Made by a program: the position numbers and the translations under genes. Of a DNA stretch of 64,000 nt, positions 29,728 through 38,905 are shown one piece after another (position 1 is the first letter of the stretch; the number at the start of each line of letters is the position of its first letter). The notes beneath the pieces are model-generated. The model was not told where the DNA came from. It saw only the letters and a program-made list of their open reading frames with translations, and made no database searches. The DNA comes from Egibacteraceae bacterium (GTDB lineage Bacteria; Actinomycetota; Nitriliruptoria; Euzebyales; Egibacteraceae): the NCBI GenBank assembly GCA_035540635.1, contig DATLGH010000108.1:1-64000 (forward strand). Reading direction: 5' to 3'.

Positions 29728-30160
29728 GGCACGCACGCTGCTGCAAAGCGGCAACGTCATCGTTGACCACGACGGCTCGGCAGCCCAGGCTCAGAGCGCG
29801 AGCGGTCAGGTTCTGGTCTCTCGCTTCGGGCTGGACGTGGCGGTCCTGGTCCGTGATGAGGCCGCGTGGCGGGGCCTCGTGGCGGACAACCCCTTGGGCG
29901 ATGTGGCCACCGACGGTAGCAAGCACTTCGTTGTCTTCTGCTCTGAACCGCACGACCCTGCGGCGCTGCCACCGGCCGTCCCGCCGGAGCAGCTGGTCGC
30001 CCGGCCGAGGGAGCTGCACGTGTGGTGCCCCCAGGGCGTGCGGGACGGCCTGCTGATGAACGCCCTGGGCCGCCGCCCGCCCGCGCCGGTGACGACCTTT
30101 CGCAACTGGAACACCGTCGCCAAACTGGGAGCGATGCTTGACGACGCAGCAAGCGGATAG
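29728..30160 (+). pseudogene. 5'-truncated DUF1697 gene
   Basis: The reading frame gives the end of a DUF1697 protein (about 135 residues): LLQSGNVIVDHDG, SRFGLDVAVLVRDEAAWRGL, PRELHVWCPQGVRDGLLMNA and a final TFRNWNTVAKLGAMLDD. Intact members begin about 45 residues earlier with an LLRGINVGG motif that is absent here. The sequence joins the family directly at the glpD stop codon, so the front was lost at that breakpoint. No start codon with a ribosome site is present. Base composition falls at the same point. The gene cannot make the usual product; I treat it as a pseudogene. Confidence 0.7.
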
Positions 30161-30408
30161 ACCCCCGAGGCTGCCGATGGGTCGCTGGAACCCTTCGTCG
30201 CTCCGCACCGCGCCGCCGGACCCGCCCGGACAAGATGGCCCGCCACCTTCACGAGCACACCACCTATACGAATACGAGGGTTGTGAGGGACACCATCGCA
30301 CCGGCTGCGGGTCGAGTACGACGCCTACAAGTCGCCACGCGCATGCGCGCCCACGTACCCAAAGTCCAGACGACACACGGTGCCAAGAGGCATGCTCACC
30401 GGTGCGGG

Positions 30409-31314
30409 TTAGTGTGCGGGGCCAATCAAGAGGATGCCGTAGTCGGCTTCGAGCCAGACGCGCCGGCAGAAGTCGAGCGATGGGTCGTGGGCGGCTTCCA
30501 CGATGAGCCAGTCGTGGTGCAGTTCGTCGCGTGCCTGCTCGGCCAGCGTCTCAGCTTGCGCGGCGGTGAGGCAGGAGTCCAGCGCGGCGGCGGTGAGCCC
30601 GATCTCGACTTCCCGTGCCCGGTTGACGGCCGCAAGCGAGGACAGCGGTCGCAATGTGACCGGCAGCGTCGTGTCCAGGGCCGTGTGGGCGCAGTCGGCC
30701 TGCCAGCCCAGCACTACAGGGAATCCCGGGCGGTCGCCGGTGATAGAGCCGTCGATCACGCGCACTGCAAACTGGGGCTCGTCAAGCAACGCCCGCACCG
30801 AGTTCGAGTCTGCCACGCCCTCGCACAGGGTGTACGTGGCGGCGCCTACCTCCAGACCTCGGACGCCGTCCGAGCCGTCGCGGCAAGCGGCGAGAAGGTC
30901 GTCTTCTGTCATCTCTGCATCCAGGGTGAATTCGTAGGAACGTCCCGAGCCGACCGTGCCGTCCTCAGCCACGCACCAGATCTCCTCGCTGCGGAGTGTG
31001 GGACGCCAGCCTTCGTTCTTGAAGGCGTACCGCCCCGCCTCCTCGGCTTCCGCGAGGATGGTCGTCACATGTTCGGGGTTTGGCTGGAACACACCCGCAG
31101 CCAGGGCGACTGCGCCGCCAAGGAGGAAAAAGGTGGCCGCCACCACCCCCGCTGGCCGCAATGGCGAGTGAGGGCGGGGCCTCACCGGAACACGGCTCAT
31201 GTGCCGTGCACGCTCGCGCAGCCGCGTCGCGGTTGGCGTGTGCGGGCTGCGGTCGATGTCCGCGGCGGGATCGGCGGCCCGGAGTAGCTCGTCGAGACGG
31301 TCGGTGTCGATCAT
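30409..31314 (-). CDS. Single-pass membrane protein paired with an ECF sigma factor
   Basis: Protein of 301 aa with a cytoplasmic N-terminus (about 1-50) that includes DTDRLDELLRAADP, one transmembrane helix (about residues 54-74, VVAATFFLLGGAVALAAGVF) and a large extracytoplasmic part with six or so cysteines. Its start overlaps the sigma factor stop by 4 nt (ATGA). This genetic arrangement is typical of an anti-sigma or sigma-associated protein, but no zinc-binding anti-sigma motif (HxxxCxxC) is seen. I do not recognise a family for the outer domain. It ends with a TAA codon before a 248-nt non-coding gap. Confidence 0.7.
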   Translation of the reverse strand: MIDTDRLDELLRAADPAADIDRSPHTPTATRLRERARHMSRVPVRPRPHSPLRPAGVVAATFFLLGGAVALAAGVFQPNPEHVTTILAEAEEAGRYAFKNEGWRPTLRSEEIWCVAEDGTVGSGRSYEFTLDAEMTEDDLLAACRDGSDGVRGLEVGAATYTLCEGVADSNSVRALLDEPQFAVRVIDGSITGDRPGFPVVLGWQADCAHTALDTTLPVTLRPLSSLAAVNRAREVEIGLTAAALDSCLTAAQAETLAEQARDELHHDWLIVEAAHDPSLDFCRRVWLEADYGILLIGPAH

Positions 31315-31901
31315 CGTTCTGCCCTCCGGATGGGTCGGGTCAAGGCGGGTGTAGGTGTCGCTTCAGGCAACGGGGGTGTCGCTTCAGGACCGTCAGCGGT
31401 GGCATCACTGAGCGCTCCGGCAAGACGATCCCGGGCACGCTGCAGCCGCTTCCACACCGCCACTGGGGAAATCTGCAAGGTGGCGGCGATCTGATCCACG
31501 CCGAGGTGCTCCCACACATGTAGCTGCAGCACCTCTCGATCGAGCGCGCTCAGCCCGCGAAGGGCTGCACCAAGGTGCTCACGTTCGACGACCTGGGTCT
31601 CGAGGCCACGCATGGCCGCCGGGCGCACTGCCCACGTCATACGCTTGAACAGGTTGTGGCGCCGCTGCATGGCGCGCGCCTGGTTGAGGCGCACTCGGTG
31701 GGCGACCCCAAACAGCCACATCCGAGCATGCCCATCCTCTGGGATCTCTCCGATGCGCCGCCACGCCACCGCAAACGTCTCCGCCACTACGTCCTCGGCG
31801 TCCTGCCTGGACGGACACCGCCGCACCGCATAGGCCAGCACATCACCGTAATGCGCGACGAACAGCTCTTCGAAGCGCTCTTCGTCTTCCGCAGTCTTCA
31901 C
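31311..31901 (-). CDS. ECF RNA polymerase sigma factor
   Basis: Sigma factor of 196 aa of the ECF group. Region 2 is FEELFVAHYGDVLAYAVRR with DAEDVVAETFAVAWRR (the -10 recognition helix), and region 4 is LDREVLQLHVWEHLGVDQIA with the helix-turn-helix ISPVAVWKRLQRAR. The C-terminus is a Pro/Thr-rich tail. GTG at 31899-31901. It overlaps the membrane-protein gene. It resembles the sigma factor at 34647 (same DVVAETF-VAWRR core), and the two modules point in opposite directions. Confidence 0.88.
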   Translation of the reverse strand: MKTAEDEERFEELFVAHYGDVLAYAVRRCPSRQDAEDVVAETFAVAWRRIGEIPEDGHARMWLFGVAHRVRLNQARAMQRRHNLFKRMTWAVRPAAMRGLETQVVEREHLGAALRGLSALDREVLQLHVWEHLGVDQIAATLQISPVAVWKRLQRARDRLAGALSDATADGPEATPPLPEATPTPALTRPIRRAER

Positions 31902-32139
31902 GCCCCTGCCTGCCTCATCCCTGTTCCGATCTGGTATGCCGCTGTTCCTTTCCCGAACATGTCCGGCACTGCAGTAATCCTGACCGGCTCGTCACCCCTG
32001 TGGCGGGCGAGTCTCGGTCTGCGCCGGCCCAGATCTACCCCGACCCGCAAGCGCAACGACCATAGCGAGCAGGTGCTGCCCCGACGCCACGACCCGATCA
32101 CACCGCGGGCGACCGCGCGAACGACGGTTTAATGCCCGC

Positions 32140-33267
32140 ATGCGTCTGCCGCCGTTCGCACTTGAGCGTTACTTCGCCCAGCATGAGTTCACCGCGCCCA
32201 TGCTGCTGTGCGCATCCGACGTGGAGCCGATGACGCTGCCCGAGCTTCTCGCACTCGCCGACGACGGTCTGCGCGCCCACTGGGAGAGCCTGAGTTTGGG
32301 CTACACCGAGAGCGGCGGACATCCCCTGCTGCGAGAAGCGATCGCGTCGTCGTCCGACTCTTTGGGTGCTGAGGATGTACTGGTCTTTGCCGGCGCCGAG
32401 GAGGCGATCTTCGCGTTCGCCAACGTCACGGTCGGCCCGGGTGATCACGTGGTGGTCGTGTGGCCCGCCTACCAGTCGCTGCACGAGGTGGCCCGCGCAG
32501 TCGGCGCAGACGTGACCCTTGTCCGCCTGGAGCATGACGCCGGCTGGGCGCTCGACGCCGAAGCTGTACGTCAGGCCATGCGACCGACCACGCGCGCGAT
32601 CATCGTGAACTTTCCGCACAATCCGACCGGCGCGCACATCGACCGGTCGACTTTTGATGCGCTCATCGGCTTGGCCGAGGAGTCCGGCGCCTGGCTGTTC
32701 TCCGACGAGGTGTACCGCTATCTCGAGCTGCCTCGGTCCTCGCGCCTTCCGGGGGCTGCTGAGTTGTCGGAGTCTGCTGTCAGCTTGGGCGTCATGTCGA
32801 AGAGCTTCGCCCTGCCAGGGCTGCGCATCGGCTGGATCGCCGCCCGCGACCGGCGGCTTCTGGACCGGTTGGCCGCGTTCAAGGACTACACCACGATCTG
32901 CAATGCGGCACCCAGCGAGGTGCTGGCCCTCATCGCCCTGCGCAACCTCGAACGTGTGGTTGATCGAAGCCGGCAGATTGTGGACGCGAATCTCTCGCTC
33001 CTAGACGACTTCTTCGAGCGATGCGCTGGGACGTTCGACTGGGTCCGGCCGCGCGGCGCTAGCATCGCCTTCCCCCGCTTGCTGGCGGAGACGCCGATCG
33101 AGCAGTTCGCCGAGCAGCTGATCACTGAGGAAGGTGTCGTGCTGCTCCCCGGCTCGGTCTACGGCCATCCGGGGAATCATTTCCGCCTCGGATTCGGCCG
33201 GCGCAACCTGCCGGAGGCGTTGGAGCGGCTGGAGGTGTTCGCGGACCGCCACCTCGGTGCAAGGTGA
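32140..33267 (+). CDS. PLP-dependent class I/II aminotransferase
   Basis: Fold-type I aminotransferase of 375 aa. The substrate-domain signature NFPHNPTG, the Asp/Tyr pair in LFSDEVYRYLEL and the PLP lysine in MSKSFALPGLRIGW are all present. The start MRLPPFALERYFAQHEF resembles the group that includes capreomycidine synthase (VioD) and related enzymes of small-molecule pathways, but such an assignment is weak. It is divergent from the sigma factor module across a 238-nt gap with less GC-rich sequence. It appears intact, unlike the truncated genes that follow. Confidence 0.8.
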   Translation: MRLPPFALERYFAQHEFTAPMLLCASDVEPMTLPELLALADDGLRAHWESLSLGYTESGGHPLLREAIASSSDSLGAEDVLVFAGAEEAIFAFANVTVGPGDHVVVVWPAYQSLHEVARAVGADVTLVRLEHDAGWALDAEAVRQAMRPTTRAIIVNFPHNPTGAHIDRSTFDALIGLAEESGAWLFSDEVYRYLELPRSSRLPGAAELSESAVSLGVMSKSFALPGLRIGWIAARDRRLLDRLAAFKDYTTICNAAPSEVLALIALRNLERVVDRSRQIVDANLSLLDDFFERCAGTFDWVRPRGASIAFPRLLAETPIEQFAEQLITEEGVVLLPGSVYGHPGNHFRLGFGRRNLPEALERLEVFADRHLGAR

Positions 33268-33280
33268 CGCCTCCGTCATC

Positions 33281-33475
33281 TCACGGCGTTGCGAGACTCC
33301 GCCATCGCAAGCCGGCGTACAGGGCTACGCCCCACGGCGCTCGCAACATGCTCTTGACCCGGCCGCCAGGGGCCGACAGCGTCTGCCATGCCGCTCGCCA
33401 TTCGGCGGCGGTGATCCCCCCCTGCAATGGGGAGCACCCAGAGGTCGGCACAGCCGTCGCCGTCCCTGGTCGGGC
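33281..33475 (-). other. Probable remnant of an unidentified coding region
   Basis: On the minus strand the frame ending at TGA 33281 reads TAAEWRAAWQTLSAPGG, RVKSMLRAPWGVALYAG and LRWRSLATP, which is protein-like. A second frame upstream reads CADLWVLPIAGG, and the two join exactly at a run of seven G. This fits one gene broken by a one-base insertion in that homopolymer. No start codon and no recognised family. Weak evidence; the rest of the 234-nt gap looks non-coding. Confidence 0.25.
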
Positions 33476-33501
33476 ATGGTCACTCTAGCCTCGGCCGACC
33501 C

Positions 33502-33650
33502 TCAGGACCGCTCGGAGTCGACCCGCCGCGGCTCGCGGTCGTCAAGCGCGTGTGCGAGACAAGCGACGATTGCTTGGGCTATCGAGCCGTCGGGGTCGAG
33601 CGTTGGATTGAAGATGGTGACCTCGAGCCCGACTAGTTCGCCGCTCTGGG
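33502..33650 (-). pseudogene. C-terminal fragment of an arginase-family gene
   Basis: The minus-strand frame ends with SGELVGLEVTIFNPTLDP followed by DGSIAQAIVACLAHALDD. In arginase/agmatinase-family proteins this is the last strand and helix after the metal site; the catalytic part (about 230 residues upstream) is missing. The fragment begins at about 33650, exactly where the plus-strand AzlD fragment starts, so both lost their front halves at one junction. Recognition is from motif memory. Confidence 0.5.
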
Positions 33651-33660
33651 CTTGATTCCT

Positions 33661-33882
33661 GCACCAACCGGGCGGCTCGCACATATGATCGAGCGGCTCC
33701 CTGCTCCGCTGTTCGCGGGCCTGGCCGTCCTCACCCTCTTGGGCGGGGAGGTCCATCTGCCCTCAATGCCGATCCTGGTGAGCGCCGGTGTGGCGCTGGC
33801 GCTCACCTGGACCCGTTCGCTGCTGATCATCCTCGCGGGGGGGTTGATCGCGTACTTGGTGGCCGCCAGCCTGGCTGCGTGA
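33661..33882 (+). pseudogene. C-terminal fragment of an AzlD-like transporter gene
   Basis: The frame from ATG 33685 gives 65 residues with two hydrophobic helices, LPAPLFAGLAVLTLLGG and TRSLLIILAGGLIAYLVAA, separated by a short loop. This resembles the last two helices of AzlD, the small subunit of the branched-chain amino acid exporter AzlCD. AzlC and the front of AzlD are absent, and the sequence starts at the same breakpoint as the arginase fragment. It could be a free-standing two-helix protein, but no ribosome site is seen. Confidence 0.45.
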
Positions 33883-34646
33883 ACGGCACGGGGTCAGGGC
33901 GCGGCACCGATGTCGCCGGCGATGGATCGATGGTGCGGGCGTGCCCACCTCGCGGCTGGACTGTCCGGCGCCGACCGGCTCCATGGTCACAAACACGGTC
34001 CGCATGGCGAAGGTGCACAGCAGCAAGCGGCGCAAGGAAAGTCGGGCGCCGCGGTGGTGCGGGGCCAGCGCTCGGGGCCCCGGACTTGGACCAGACGACG
34101 ACGAGCAGCACAGCAGCCTGAACCCAGGCCCGTCAGGATGAGGAGGACGAGGTGGCCGTCGACGGTGGCGTAGGCAGCCATCAGGTCCGGTGAGTGACAG
34201 CAAGGTAGACCGCCAGGAGCGTCCAGATAGTGAGAACCGCTCGGCGGGTCATGCGGAGCCAACGACCTGGACGTCCCACCTGCCGGAGGTGGTCGAGCTG
34301 GTCGAGGCGGTTGACCATGTCAGTCAGGTCCGCGACGTCCCACGTCCCGACCATCCAGGTCGGTACTCGACTGATTGATAGGAGGACCCACCCCTCCCTC
34401 CAGAGTTCGGCAAACAGGTGCGATGGAGTTGATTGATAACCCGCAACGCCAACCCTCATCAGCCAGGCTAACCGCGCGCCGCTGGACAACCCACGAACCG
34501 GCTCCCACGAAGGCACCGCCGCCACAATTGGCGGCGGTGCCTCGTGGTGTCCGGGACGGGCCGACTCTCGTCGCGACTCCAGCCTGGTTGGCGACAACCT
34601 GAAACGGATCGCCTCAGCCGGACACGTGTATGACGAGGAGGCCACT
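33883..34646. other. 764-nt stretch without a secure gene
   Basis: No reading frame here has a known family. The minus strand holds two short frames joined by a TGATG overlap at 34179-34183. The first (34354 to 34181, 57 codons) ends with a basic, helix-like WLRMTRRAVLTIWTLLAVYLA; the second (from 34181 downward) starts MAAYATVDGHLVLLILTG but becomes an implausible Cys/Pro-rich tail, as if frameshifted. A near-duplicate word TTGATTGATA/CTGATTGATA occurs at about 34370 and 34430, and a long hairpin lies at 34506-34547. The region lies upstream of the plus-strand sigma factor and may contain its promoter. Confidence 0.4.
34506..34547. terminator. Long near-perfect hairpin
   Basis: The arms GGCACCGCCGCC and GGCGGCGGTGCC pair perfectly around a six-base loop (ACAATT), and the stem extends outward by CACGA/TCGTG with one bulged A. 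A 17-bp stem is far above background even in GC-rich DNA. No T run follows, so it may be a factor-dependent terminator, an insulator, or the end of a lost element. It lies 100 nt before the sigma factor start. Confidence 0.5.
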
Positions 34647-35243
34647 TTGCTGACACCATCAGATCCGATTGATGGAGATCCACTATGTCTTGTCCCCGGA
34701 CAGACAAAGCGCTCGATACGTGAGGGGCGTACGCGGTTCGAGCGCATCTACGAGGAGAACTCGCACCTGATCCTGGCGTACGCGTTGCGCCGCACGGACA
34801 CAGCTGCTGATGCGAGCGACGTGGTCGCTGAGACCTTCCTGGTCGCGTGGCGAAGGCTCGAGGACGTGCCCGAAGGCGAGCGTGCACGGCTGTGGCTGTA
34901 CGCAACCGCACGGCGCGTGCTCGCCAACCACTACCGCGGCAAGCGTCGAGCACGCGAGCTCAGCGAGCGCGTGCAAGGCGAGGTTCTCCGCACCGCCGCA
35001 CAGCTCGACACGACCATCGACACCGGCCCCGACGGCGACGCGCTCCAAGCCGCGTTCTCCCGTCTCAAGGACGACGATCAGGAGGTCCTGACTCTGGTCG
35101 GTGTCGAGCAGCTCGACCGTGACCAGGTCGCCGAGGTCCTCGGAGGCAGCCGAGCGAACGTCCGTGTGCGGCTGCACCGTGCTCGCCGGCGGTTCGCGAA
35201 GGAGCTGAAGAAGGTTGGTATCGACCCGCAACGCTCGACGTGA
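34647..35243 (+). CDS. ECF RNA polymerase sigma factor
   Basis: ECF sigma factor of 198 aa. Region 2 is FERIYEENSHLILAYALRR with DVVAETFLVAWRRLEDVP, and region 4 ends with SRANVRVRLHRARRRFAKEL, the promoter -35 reading helix. It is closely similar in pattern to the sigma factor at 31311. The TTG at 34647 is preferred because GAGGAG lies 6 nt before it; GTG 34626 in the same frame has no ribosome site. It is followed after 56 nt by a membrane partner gene. Confidence 0.87.
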   Translation: MLTPSDPIDGDPLCLVPGQTKRSIREGRTRFERIYEENSHLILAYALRRTDTAADASDVVAETFLVAWRRLEDVPEGERARLWLYATARRVLANHYRGKRRARELSERVQGEVLRTAAQLDTTIDTGPDGDALQAAFSRLKDDDQEVLTLVGVEQLDRDQVAEVLGGSRANVRVRLHRARRRFAKELKKVGIDPQRST

Positions 35244-35299
35244 GCCGGACACGAAGTAGGTGAACGGGCACCTGTCCGTCCCGACCCGAAGGAAGCACT

Positions 35300-36301
35300 G
35301 TGACCCGCGACAACGAGCACCCCATCGACGACTTCGTCCGTCGGGCCGTTGGCGTGGACGAGATTGAGGTCGCCTCCGTGTGGTCGGCCAGCGTGGCCAA
35401 GCAGGCCCTCCTTCAGGAGATCACCTCGATGTCGCCCACGACGACCCGAGAACCCCAGACCAACACCCGGCCGACGCTCCGCCGCGGCTGGTTGCGTCGC
35501 CTCCCGGCACTCGCCGGCGTCGCCGCCGTGATCGCTGCCGCGCTGCTGGTCGGCCCAGCGCTTCTACTCACCCCCGATGCGCCGAGTCCGGCCGAGTTGA
35601 TGCTCAGCTACGAGTCCACCGACCGCTCGCTGTCCGACGTGCTGCTCCAGGCCGCCGCCGCAGCGGGGAGCGCACCGGCGGAGGATGCACAGGCCACGAC
35701 CTGGCGTGTGGAGACCTGGGCGATGACCGGCGGCAACGCGCCCGCGCAGATGCGGCCCGAGGTGCGCCAGTGGTGGCGGACGCCCGACGGGCTGTACTAC
35801 CGCGCGCAGAGCGGCGACCCACTGGAGGTCGGCGACGAGCTCCGTGACCTGCCCGACGACGTTGACGGCGAGCTGGTCAGTGCTGCAGACCCGTACGGTG
35901 AACTGGCGGCACGGCTTCCCAGCGACCCGCAGGAGGCTGCAGATTTCCTGGCGGCACGAGCGACCAACCCTGACATCCCCGACGACGTCGAGGTGTTCGA
36001 GTCGGTCCGTGGCCTGCTGGACTCCCACGCCCTGAGCGGTGAGCAGCGGGCCGCCCTCTACGAGGTCCTCGCCCGGCTGGAATCGACCGAGCTCGTCGGC
36101 GAGACCGTCGACCGTGCCGGACGCACCGGCACGGCGATCGGCGTGGTCAGCGACCACAGCGGCGCGACCATCCGCTACGAGCTGATCATCGACCCGGCCT
36201 GGGGCAAGGTGCTCGCTTTCCAGGAGATCCTGCTGGAGCCGATGGTCGCCTACCCGAACATGCAAACGCCTGCCGTGGTCGAGTACATGACCTACTTCTG
36301 A
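35300..36301 (+). CDS. CU044_5270-family-like membrane protein
   Basis: Protein of 333 aa in the position where actinobacteria often place a CU044_5270-family protein after an ECF sigma factor. A cytoplasmic segment (about 1-65) precedes one transmembrane helix (LAGVAAVIAAALLVGPALLL). The outer part has the family-like pattern: QATTWRVETWAMT, QWWRTPDGLYYRA, ARLPSDPQEAADFL, ALSGEQRAALYEVLARL and IIDPAWGKVLAFQEIL. Probably a sensor or anti-sigma partner of the preceding factor; the mechanism is unknown. GAAGGAAG lies before GTG 35300. It is the last gene of the lower-GC region. Confidence 0.75.
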   Translation: MTRDNEHPIDDFVRRAVGVDEIEVASVWSASVAKQALLQEITSMSPTTTREPQTNTRPTLRRGWLRRLPALAGVAAVIAAALLVGPALLLTPDAPSPAELMLSYESTDRSLSDVLLQAAAAAGSAPAEDAQATTWRVETWAMTGGNAPAQMRPEVRQWWRTPDGLYYRAQSGDPLEVGDELRDLPDDVDGELVSAADPYGELAARLPSDPQEAADFLAARATNPDIPDDVEVFESVRGLLDSHALSGEQRAALYEVLARLESTELVGETVDRAGRTGTAIGVVSDHSGATIRYELIIDPAWGKVLAFQEILLEPMVAYPNMQTPAVVEYMTYF

Positions 36302-36490
36302 AGACGGTGGCGGCAGCGAACCCACTACGCCTGCGGGCTCAGGGCGTCAGCGCAACAGCCTCGGCGTACTTCTCTGATGGTGTCATGAATGCGACCGGCG
36401 CGTGAGGCTGCGCCCAGGACGCCGGGCGGCCTGGCGCTGGCGTACGCTGCACCGCCGTGCGCTGCCAAGGGCGCCGAGGGGGTGGAGGGC

Positions 36491-38905
36491 ATGCCGTACC
36501 CGGGGTCGTGGCCGTTCCTGGTGGCGCTCGCCGTCGCCCTGGCCGTCGCCGTTCCGGTGGCCGCCCCGGCGGCCGGCGCTGGCGCCGGCTGCCTGCAGGC
36601 GGTGTCGGCGTCAGCGCCGATCGAGCGCCTCGGCGGCCCGGACCGCTACGCGACGGCCGCTTGCGCGTCGGCGGTCGCATTTCCCGACGGGGCGGCGCAC
36701 GTGCTCGTGGCGCGCGGCGACCTGGCTGGCGGGCTCTCGGACGCGCTGGCCGGCACGGTGCTCGCCCATGCCGTCGGAGGTCCGGTGCTGCTCACCGACC
36801 CCGCCAGGCTGCCGGCCGCGACCCGCGACGAGCTCGTCCGCCTCGCCCCGGGCACGGTCACGATCCTTGGGGGCCCGGCGGCCGTGTCGCCCGCCGTGAA
36901 CGCCGAGGTCGCCGGCCTCGGCGTCTCCGTCCGCCGGGTCGCAGGGTCGTCGCGGGAGGCGACCGCCGCGGCCTTGTCGCAGGAGGCCGGCGCCGCCGGC
37001 ACGGCGTTCGTGGTCAACGGCCGACGCCCCGCCGACTCGCTGGTGGCGGCTGCGCCCGCGGCCCGCGGCGGGGCCAAGCTGCTCCTGTCGGGCCAGCACG
37101 ACCTACCGGCCGTCACCGAGCAGGCCCTTGCCGGCGTGCAGCGCGTCGTCGTCGTCGGCGGGTACGGCGTGGTGGGAGAGGCCGTCGAGGCCCACCTGCG
37201 CCGGCTCGTCGGGCCGGACGGGGTGCGCCGCGTGTCGGGCGCCGACCGGGGCGGCACGGCCGCGTCGGTGGCCCGGGCGTTTCCCTCGGCCGGCCGGCGC
37301 CTGCTCGTCGGCCAGGGTGACGCGAACCTCGTCGACGCGGTCGCTGCCGGCTGGGTCGCCGCGCGGTCCGGCGGCCCGGTGCTGTACGCGGGCCGCGACG
37401 CCCCCGGTGCGGGCACGGACCGCTGGCTGCGGCTCGGCGGCTTGCGTCCCGAGGGTGCCGCGAGCGAACCGGCCACCCGTCTCGTCGGCGGCGTGAACGT
37501 GCTGTCGGGCGCGCTCGTGACCGCGCTCGAGGCCCGCTACGAGGAGGCTCGGCGCGGCGGCCCGCGGCCCGAGCTGCGCGGCGTGTGGATCCACCTTTTC
37601 GACCCCACGCTGAAGTCGCGTTCGGGCGTAAACGCCGTGCTCGACGCGGCGGTACGTGCCAACCTCAACACCGTGGTAGTGCAGGTCGCCCGCCGCCAGG
37701 ACGCCTACTACCGGTCCTCGGTCTTGCCGCGGACCCCGGACCCCGAGCTGCCGGCCGACTTCGACCTGCTCGCCCACGTCGTGCCGGCCGCCCACGACCG
37801 GGGGCTGGCCGTCCACGCGTGGATGTCGACCCTTCCGGCCTACCACAGTGTCTACGACCACCTGCCGCTGCCGCCCGACCACGTCTGGGCCCGTCACGGA
37901 CCGCACACCGCCGACCCCTGGACGACACGCAGCCACACCGGCGCGCCCAGCACCTACCTCGACCCGGGCGTGCCCGCCGTCCAGGACCACGTGGCCGCCG
38001 CCCTGGCCGAGATCGCGGCCGGCTACGACGTGGACGCCGTGCACATCGACTACCTCCGCTACGACGGCGAGCAGTGGGGCTACCACCCGACCGCCGTTCA
38101 CCGCTACGGGGTGCTGACCGGGCAGGCCGGCACCCCCGCGCCGTCCGACCCGGTGTGGGGCCAGTGGCGGCGCCGGCAGACGCGCGACCTCGCGCGGCGG
38201 GTGTTCCTCGAGGTCGCCGCCGTGGACCCCGACGTCGCCGTGTCAATCGCGGCCAGCACGATGGGCGCGGGTCCGGGGAGCAGCGGCGGCTATCCCAACA
38301 CCCGCACGTTCCGCGACGTCTTCCAGGACTGGCCGGCCTGGCTGGCCGACGGCACGATCGACGCGGCGTTCCCGATGAACTACTTCCGTGAGCACGACAC
38401 CGCCCAGCGGACCTGGTTCGACGACTGGGTGTCCTTCGAGGCGCACGTGCCGCGCCCCGGCCGCGTGCTCGCCGTCGGGCAGGCCAGCTACCTCAACTCG
38501 GTCGAGGGCTCCCTGGCACAGCTCGCCCGCGCCCGCGGTTCCAGCGACGGCGTCGTGCTCTACAGCTACCAGCAGACCACCGCGTCGGGGCACCCTGGGG
38601 CGCTGCTCGCCGCCCTCCCGCACAGGCTGTTCGTCGACCCGGCGCCGGCGCCGGCCCTCGCGCGCCACTCGTCGCCCGCCGGCCATCTGGTCGTCGTCGC
38701 CGCCGACGGCGTGCAGGTCCGCATCGCACCGGAGGGCGGGGGGCCGGCACCACCCGCCGTGCTTGCTGACGGGACGGGCCGCGCCGGCTTCCTTCACCTC
38801 GCTCCCGGCCGCTGGATCGTGACCGCTCCGGGCTTTGCCCCCGCGACCGTGACCATCACCACCCGCCAGGTCGCAACCGTCACCCTGCGGGCCGATCCGT
38901 CCTGA
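36491..38905 (+). CDS. Secreted cell-wall-binding protein with a family-10-like glycosidase domain
   Basis: Exported protein of 804 aa. A signal peptide (about 1-30) is followed by three cell-wall-binding type 2 repeats (about 38-355) with IERLGGPDRYATAA, VTILGGPAAVSPAV and VRRVSGADRGGTAASVA. From residue 361 a (beta/alpha)8 glycosidase-like domain begins ELRGVWIHLFDP, with DVDAVHIDYLRYDG and AAFPMNYFREHD as probable catalytic-site segments, as in the GHL10/DUF4015 group. A small beta domain ends the protein. It should bind the wall and act on a wall or capsule polymer. The start is uncertain: GTG 36482 is an in-frame alternative with GGGG directly upstream. High GC resumes here. Confidence 0.85.
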   Translation: MPYPGSWPFLVALAVALAVAVPVAAPAAGAGAGCLQAVSASAPIERLGGPDRYATAACASAVAFPDGAAHVLVARGDLAGGLSDALAGTVLAHAVGGPVLLTDPARLPAATRDELVRLAPGTVTILGGPAAVSPAVNAEVAGLGVSVRRVAGSSREATAAALSQEAGAAGTAFVVNGRRPADSLVAAAPAARGGAKLLLSGQHDLPAVTEQALAGVQRVVVVGGYGVVGEAVEAHLRRLVGPDGVRRVSGADRGGTAASVARAFPSAGRRLLVGQGDANLVDAVAAGWVAARSGGPVLYAGRDAPGAGTDRWLRLGGLRPEGAASEPATRLVGGVNVLSGALVTALEARYEEARRGGPRPELRGVWIHLFDPTLKSRSGVNAVLDAAVRANLNTVVVQVARRQDAYYRSSVLPRTPDPELPADFDLLAHVVPAAHDRGLAVHAWMSTLPAYHSVYDHLPLPPDHVWARHGPHTADPWTTRSHTGAPSTYLDPGVPAVQDHVAAALAEIAAGYDVDAVHIDYLRYDGEQWGYHPTAVHRYGVLTGQAGTPAPSDPVWGQWRRRQTRDLARRVFLEVAAVDPDVAVSIAASTMGAGPGSSGGYPNTRTFRDVFQDWPAWLADGTIDAAFPMNYFREHDTAQRTWFDDWVSFEAHVPRPGRVLAVGQASYLNSVEGSLAQLARARGSSDGVVLYSYQQTTASGHPGALLAALPHRLFVDPAPAPALARHSSPAGHLVVVAADGVQVRIAPEGGGPAPPAVLADGTGRAGFLHLAPGRWIVTAPGFAPATVTITTRQVATVTLRADPS

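Follow-up and report, generated by a model that had tools for sequence, protein, structure and literature searches.

Genes and gene remnants downstream of glpD

We analysed a window of 64,000 nucleotides (the whole stretch of DNA under study) from contig DATLGH010000108.1 of an Egibacteraceae bacterium, in which positions 29728-36390 separate the stop codon of glpD from the gene for a large surface protein. The features of this interval are as follows.

29732-30160, + strand: DUF1697 gene without its 5' part (PF08002, E 1.1e-13, profile positions 40-117 of 137)
30090-36390, no strand: maximal-scoring segment of low G+C (score 62.1)
30161-30335, + strand: downstream remainder of a duplicated segment, broken by small insertions and deletions (matches contig C54 of the same genome to 30262, then at 30297-30329)
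30409-31314, - strand: partner gene of sigma module 1, a putative anti-sigma factor or sensor (weak CU044_5270 match, E 0.0038, below cut-off)
31311-31901, - strand: ECF sigma factor of module 1 (Sigma70_r2, Sigma70_r4_2 and TIGR02937 above cut-off)
32140-33267, + strand: intact class I/II PLP aminotransferase (PF00155, E 6.4e-44)
33502-33654, - strand: C-terminal remnant of an arginase-family gene (best match a G012 reading frame that is PF00491 arginase)
33679-33882, + strand: C-terminal remnant of azlD, last 67 residues (50% identical to a G036 reading frame that is PF05437 AzlD)
34626-35243, + strand: ECF sigma factor of module 2 (Sigma70_r2 and Sigma70_r4_2 above cut-off)
35300-36301, + strand: CU044_5270-family partner gene of sigma module 2 (NF038083, E 1.1e-31, 110.7 bits against a cut-off of 100)
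36332-36389, - strand: IS30-family insertion sequence (IS) end, comprising the last codons of the transposase (FMTPSEKYAEAVALTP-stop) and a probable terminal inverted repeat at 36332-36357

An earlier note on this DNA had described two sigma modules, one intact aminotransferase and at least three truncated genes; all were recovered, both sigma genes with a partner gene, and the truncated genes proved to be those for DUF1697, arginase and AzlD. About 1 kb of the interval (33268-33500 and 33883-34620) gave no match to anything found. The window contains no structured RNA.

As in known pairs of ECF sigma factors with CU044_5270 (NF038083) proteins, the sigma and partner genes of each module are adjacent and on the same strand, those of module 1 overlapping by 4 bp. 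Only the partner of module 2 scores above the cut-off of this family; that of module 1, unlike the known pairs, lies far below it (17.1 against 100). Both partners are sparsely distributed, with distant matches to that of module 1 in 3 of the 65 other genomes of the class and distant relatives of that of module 2 in five. The sigma factor of module 2 has relatives at 53-58% identity in two genomes (G003 and G020), at other loci. Just upstream of its gene (34505-34547) lies a strong GC-rich inverted repeat, GGCACCGCCGCC...GGCGGCGGTGCC, which lacks a T run and is perhaps a transcription terminator.

Relatives of the aminotransferase are scattered over many phyla, among them one in a Chloroflexi metagenome-assembled genome (61% identity) and others in Chlamydiae, Gemmatimonadetes and Actinomycetota assemblies (54-59%). 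Within the class, one of the 65 other genomes (G048) holds a close relative (58%), the next best match being at ~30%. The protein shows full-length similarity to the PRK07324/GntC/VioD group, with 3op7 and 8fft as solved relatives, but it falls below every curated cut-off, including those of the GntC and VioD equivalogs (276.5 against 415 bits and 240.4 against 390.9 bits, respectively), and no specific reaction can therefore be assigned to it.

Since Pfam searches made directly on the short remnants returned nothing, we first looked for their homologues and then assigned these to families. The arginase remnant aligned with a score of 73, compared with at most 52 in 1000 shuffles; solved structures gave only chance matches to it. 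The azlD remnant, corresponding to the C-terminal two thirds of AzlD, scored 149, compared with at most 63 in the shuffle control. The two stubs are divergent, ~25 bp apart, and both lack their 5' ends, so that one deletion can explain both; a single loss of the DNA between them would be the simplest account. We also considered, and rejected, arginase and AzlD as members of a cluster linked to the aminotransferase: when the surroundings of related aminotransferases (81 loci) were searched with full-length queries, nothing matched at E 1e-2.

Base composition and edges of the stretch

The G+C content of positions 29728-36390 was 67.6%, compared with 73.3% around them. All 1-kb bins from 30 to 36 kb lay at 65.5-69.5%, while the mean elsewhere in the window was 73.3% (sd 2.1). 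The maximal-scoring segment far exceeded both the highest value in 300 shuffles of 300-bp blocks (24.8) and that in the rest of the window (19.3). Third codon positions told the same story: GC3 was 0.80, 0.72, 0.82, 0.75 and 0.87 in the five intact genes of the stretch and 0.89-0.95 in 15 genes outside it. G+C was thus not uniform along the window, and the shift in base composition after glpD that had been noticed by eye was borne out by the bins, the segment score and GC3 alike; as is typical of an accessory patch, the composition is unlike that of the flanks. The stretch is clear, yet it is not unique in the genome, where low G+C also occurs at the start of contig C51 and at the end of C54 (~68%).

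Such values could also arise in native genes of relaxed composition, their G+C lowered by weak selection or poor expression. In favour of this reading, 19% of 313 1-kb bins sampled from contigs elsewhere in the genome fall below 70% G+C, and relatives of sigma module 2 occur in the family. We nevertheless consider it unlikely, since the aminotransferase has its best matches in other phyla and a close relative in only one other genome of the class, and since no gene of the patch was seen at the same place in relatives.

At the left edge, the DUF1697 frame is joined 4 bp past the glpD stop codon (29727). Positions 29732-30262 are 92% identical to positions 23147-23672 of contig C54, and beyond 30262 a further 33 bp (30297-30329) match the same contig at 94%. 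The C54 copy of DUF1697 (L026 6043-6600) keeps its 5' end and has its frame broken further on; a complete gene can therefore be read from neither copy, unless a sequencing error accounts for the frameshift in C54. The C54 copy sits in another contig end of low G+C, beside a partial match to a PLP decarboxylase.

At the right edge, positions 36332-36389 match the 3' ends of IS30 transposase genes in four other genomes (G034, G035, G003 and G013) and on contig C96 of the same genome, at up to 95% over 38 bp (a value reached in two of them) and up to 84% over 58 bp. When the window was cut into 2205 overlapping 58-bp pieces, this one gave the five best matches to IS30 loci. The match ends at 36389, coinciding with the end of the low-G+C segment at 36390, where G+C jumps back. 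Copies of the IS30 family (NF033563) in the related genomes and on C96, where the transposase gene scores above the family cut-off, share the same transposase tail and end sequence; unlike them, the window holds a 58-bp end with no open reading frame and no second end, whereas the 3' ends elsewhere, including that on C96, belong to a complete gene or to a longer part of one. No intact DDE transposase gene was found at the right edge, where the last codons only are left. The inverted ends of the G034 element lie ~1.2 kb apart, and the one diverged end in the window resembles them; to the right of 36390, no match to a second end rose above the window background. Judged by these alignments, the window appears to retain one diverged IS30 terminal repeat (36332-36357) with the transposase tail. 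The earlier note, which had reported no terminal repeat, needs correcting in that an IS30-family end, probably with such a repeat, lies at this edge. On C96 (L035 4811-6564), the IS30 transposase remnant adjoins frames that by eye resemble OrfA and OrfB of an IS3-type element, which might point to insertion of one of the two elements into the other.

A contiguous block of low G+C with a sharp right edge might be the decayed remainder of a genomic island or integrative element acquired all at once. Here, however, the left part copies C54 DNA and the parts differ in distribution, no conjugation gene was found, plasmid records match no further than the aminotransferase, and phage records gave no match. 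An integrase or other site-specific recombinase was absent from the reading frames scanned (small unassigned stretches remain), the window contains no tRNA, and we found no edge-to-edge repeat of note. A single entry is therefore very unlikely, and the earlier description of the region as something other than a clean island, lacking integrase and tRNA, holds.

The glpD-glgA interval in related genomes

When the region downstream of glpD was compared among relatives, a near-empty site was found in three of them (G003, G005 and G014), in which a cation-efflux gene (PF01545) comes next after glpD, ahead of convergent glgA and glgC. In the window, glpD and glgA are oriented to each other in the same way, yet 13.3 kb separates them, the interval holding the patch of low G+C, two surface-type proteins, an oxidoreductase and a DJ-1 family gene. 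The patch is thus absent at the orthologous site of the three relatives. The efflux gene is missing between glpD and glgA in the window; a relative with 52% identity to the G005 gene lies on another contig of the same genome (C33; L160 15337-16080). In a genome of the same genus (G001), glpD is convergent with glpK and the homologue of the surface protein is on another contig, an arrangement which indicates repeated rearrangement of this neighbourhood.

When 40 relatives were searched at the DNA level, the matches listed inside the stretch were short or confined to a single gene (sigma module 2, azlD, an aminotransferase motif and the IS30 tail), and none of them adjoined glpD; among them, the same genes were nowhere found intact and syntenic. 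The relatives are distant (glpD ~72-79% identical at the protein level), and the order of events cannot therefore be read from them.

An assembly artefact, by which a contig piece from another organism was joined into this metagenome-assembled contig, would suit a genome in 110 contigs and two abrupt edges, the right one at an IS end, where misjoins are common, but it is very unlikely, because the flanking glpD and glgA-glgC are linked and oriented as in three relatives, so that the contig is coherent from one side of the patch to the other, and because the edge repeats (92% identical on the left, 58 bp on the right) would be poor causes of a misjoin.

Proposed formation of the patch

Taken together, the stretch is very probably a mosaic accessory patch, formed by several gains and losses in a variable interval of the chromosome. 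Ancestrally, glpD was probably followed by the cation-efflux gene and the convergent glgA-glgC pair; in the present lineage the efflux gene is gone from this place and glpD and glgA are separated by 13.3 kb of other DNA. Within it, positions 29728-36390, foreign in composition, were probably assembled by several events. One piece is a partial copy of the DUF1697 locus also present on C54; others are the two ECF sigma/partner modules and an aminotransferase presumably acquired horizontally. Of the arginase and azlD genes, both facing 5' ends were probably removed by one deletion. An IS30-family element probably inserted and later lost its inner part, and it may have set the right edge rather than lying there as a bystander. 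The differently sourced parts and the three separate truncations fit the 'repeated insertion and deletion' that had been proposed from the sequence by eye. Against the mosaic account count the lack of direct repeats or a target-site duplication that would mark an insertion, the shortness of the IS30 stub (58 bp, without a partner end), the distance of the relatives, and the fact that bins of low G+C are fairly common in the genome.

The patch resembles other regions of genomic plasticity, or accessory patches, with IS remnants at their borders in its composition step, patchy genes, gene stubs, IS end at the edge and near-empty site in relatives; nothing essential differs, and no site-specific integration is visible. 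The 6.6-kb patch reflects ordinary genome turnover and represents neither a new system nor a new mechanism; it presents an interval filling and emptying between metabolic genes in a little-studied lineage, and its right edge could be placed to the exact base. It is most doubtful that both ECF sigma modules have been kept by selection and regulate the aminotransferase or the neighbouring surface-protein genes; if they did, the patch would be a working regulatory acquisition, not debris.

In annotating the region, neither the IS30 end nor any of the three gene stubs should be recorded as a working gene. The adjacent long frame (36389-38905), which encodes a CWB2/GHL10 surface protein, has its listed start inside the IS30 junction; homology to the G001 protein begins at ~36523, and the true start is probably near 36491.
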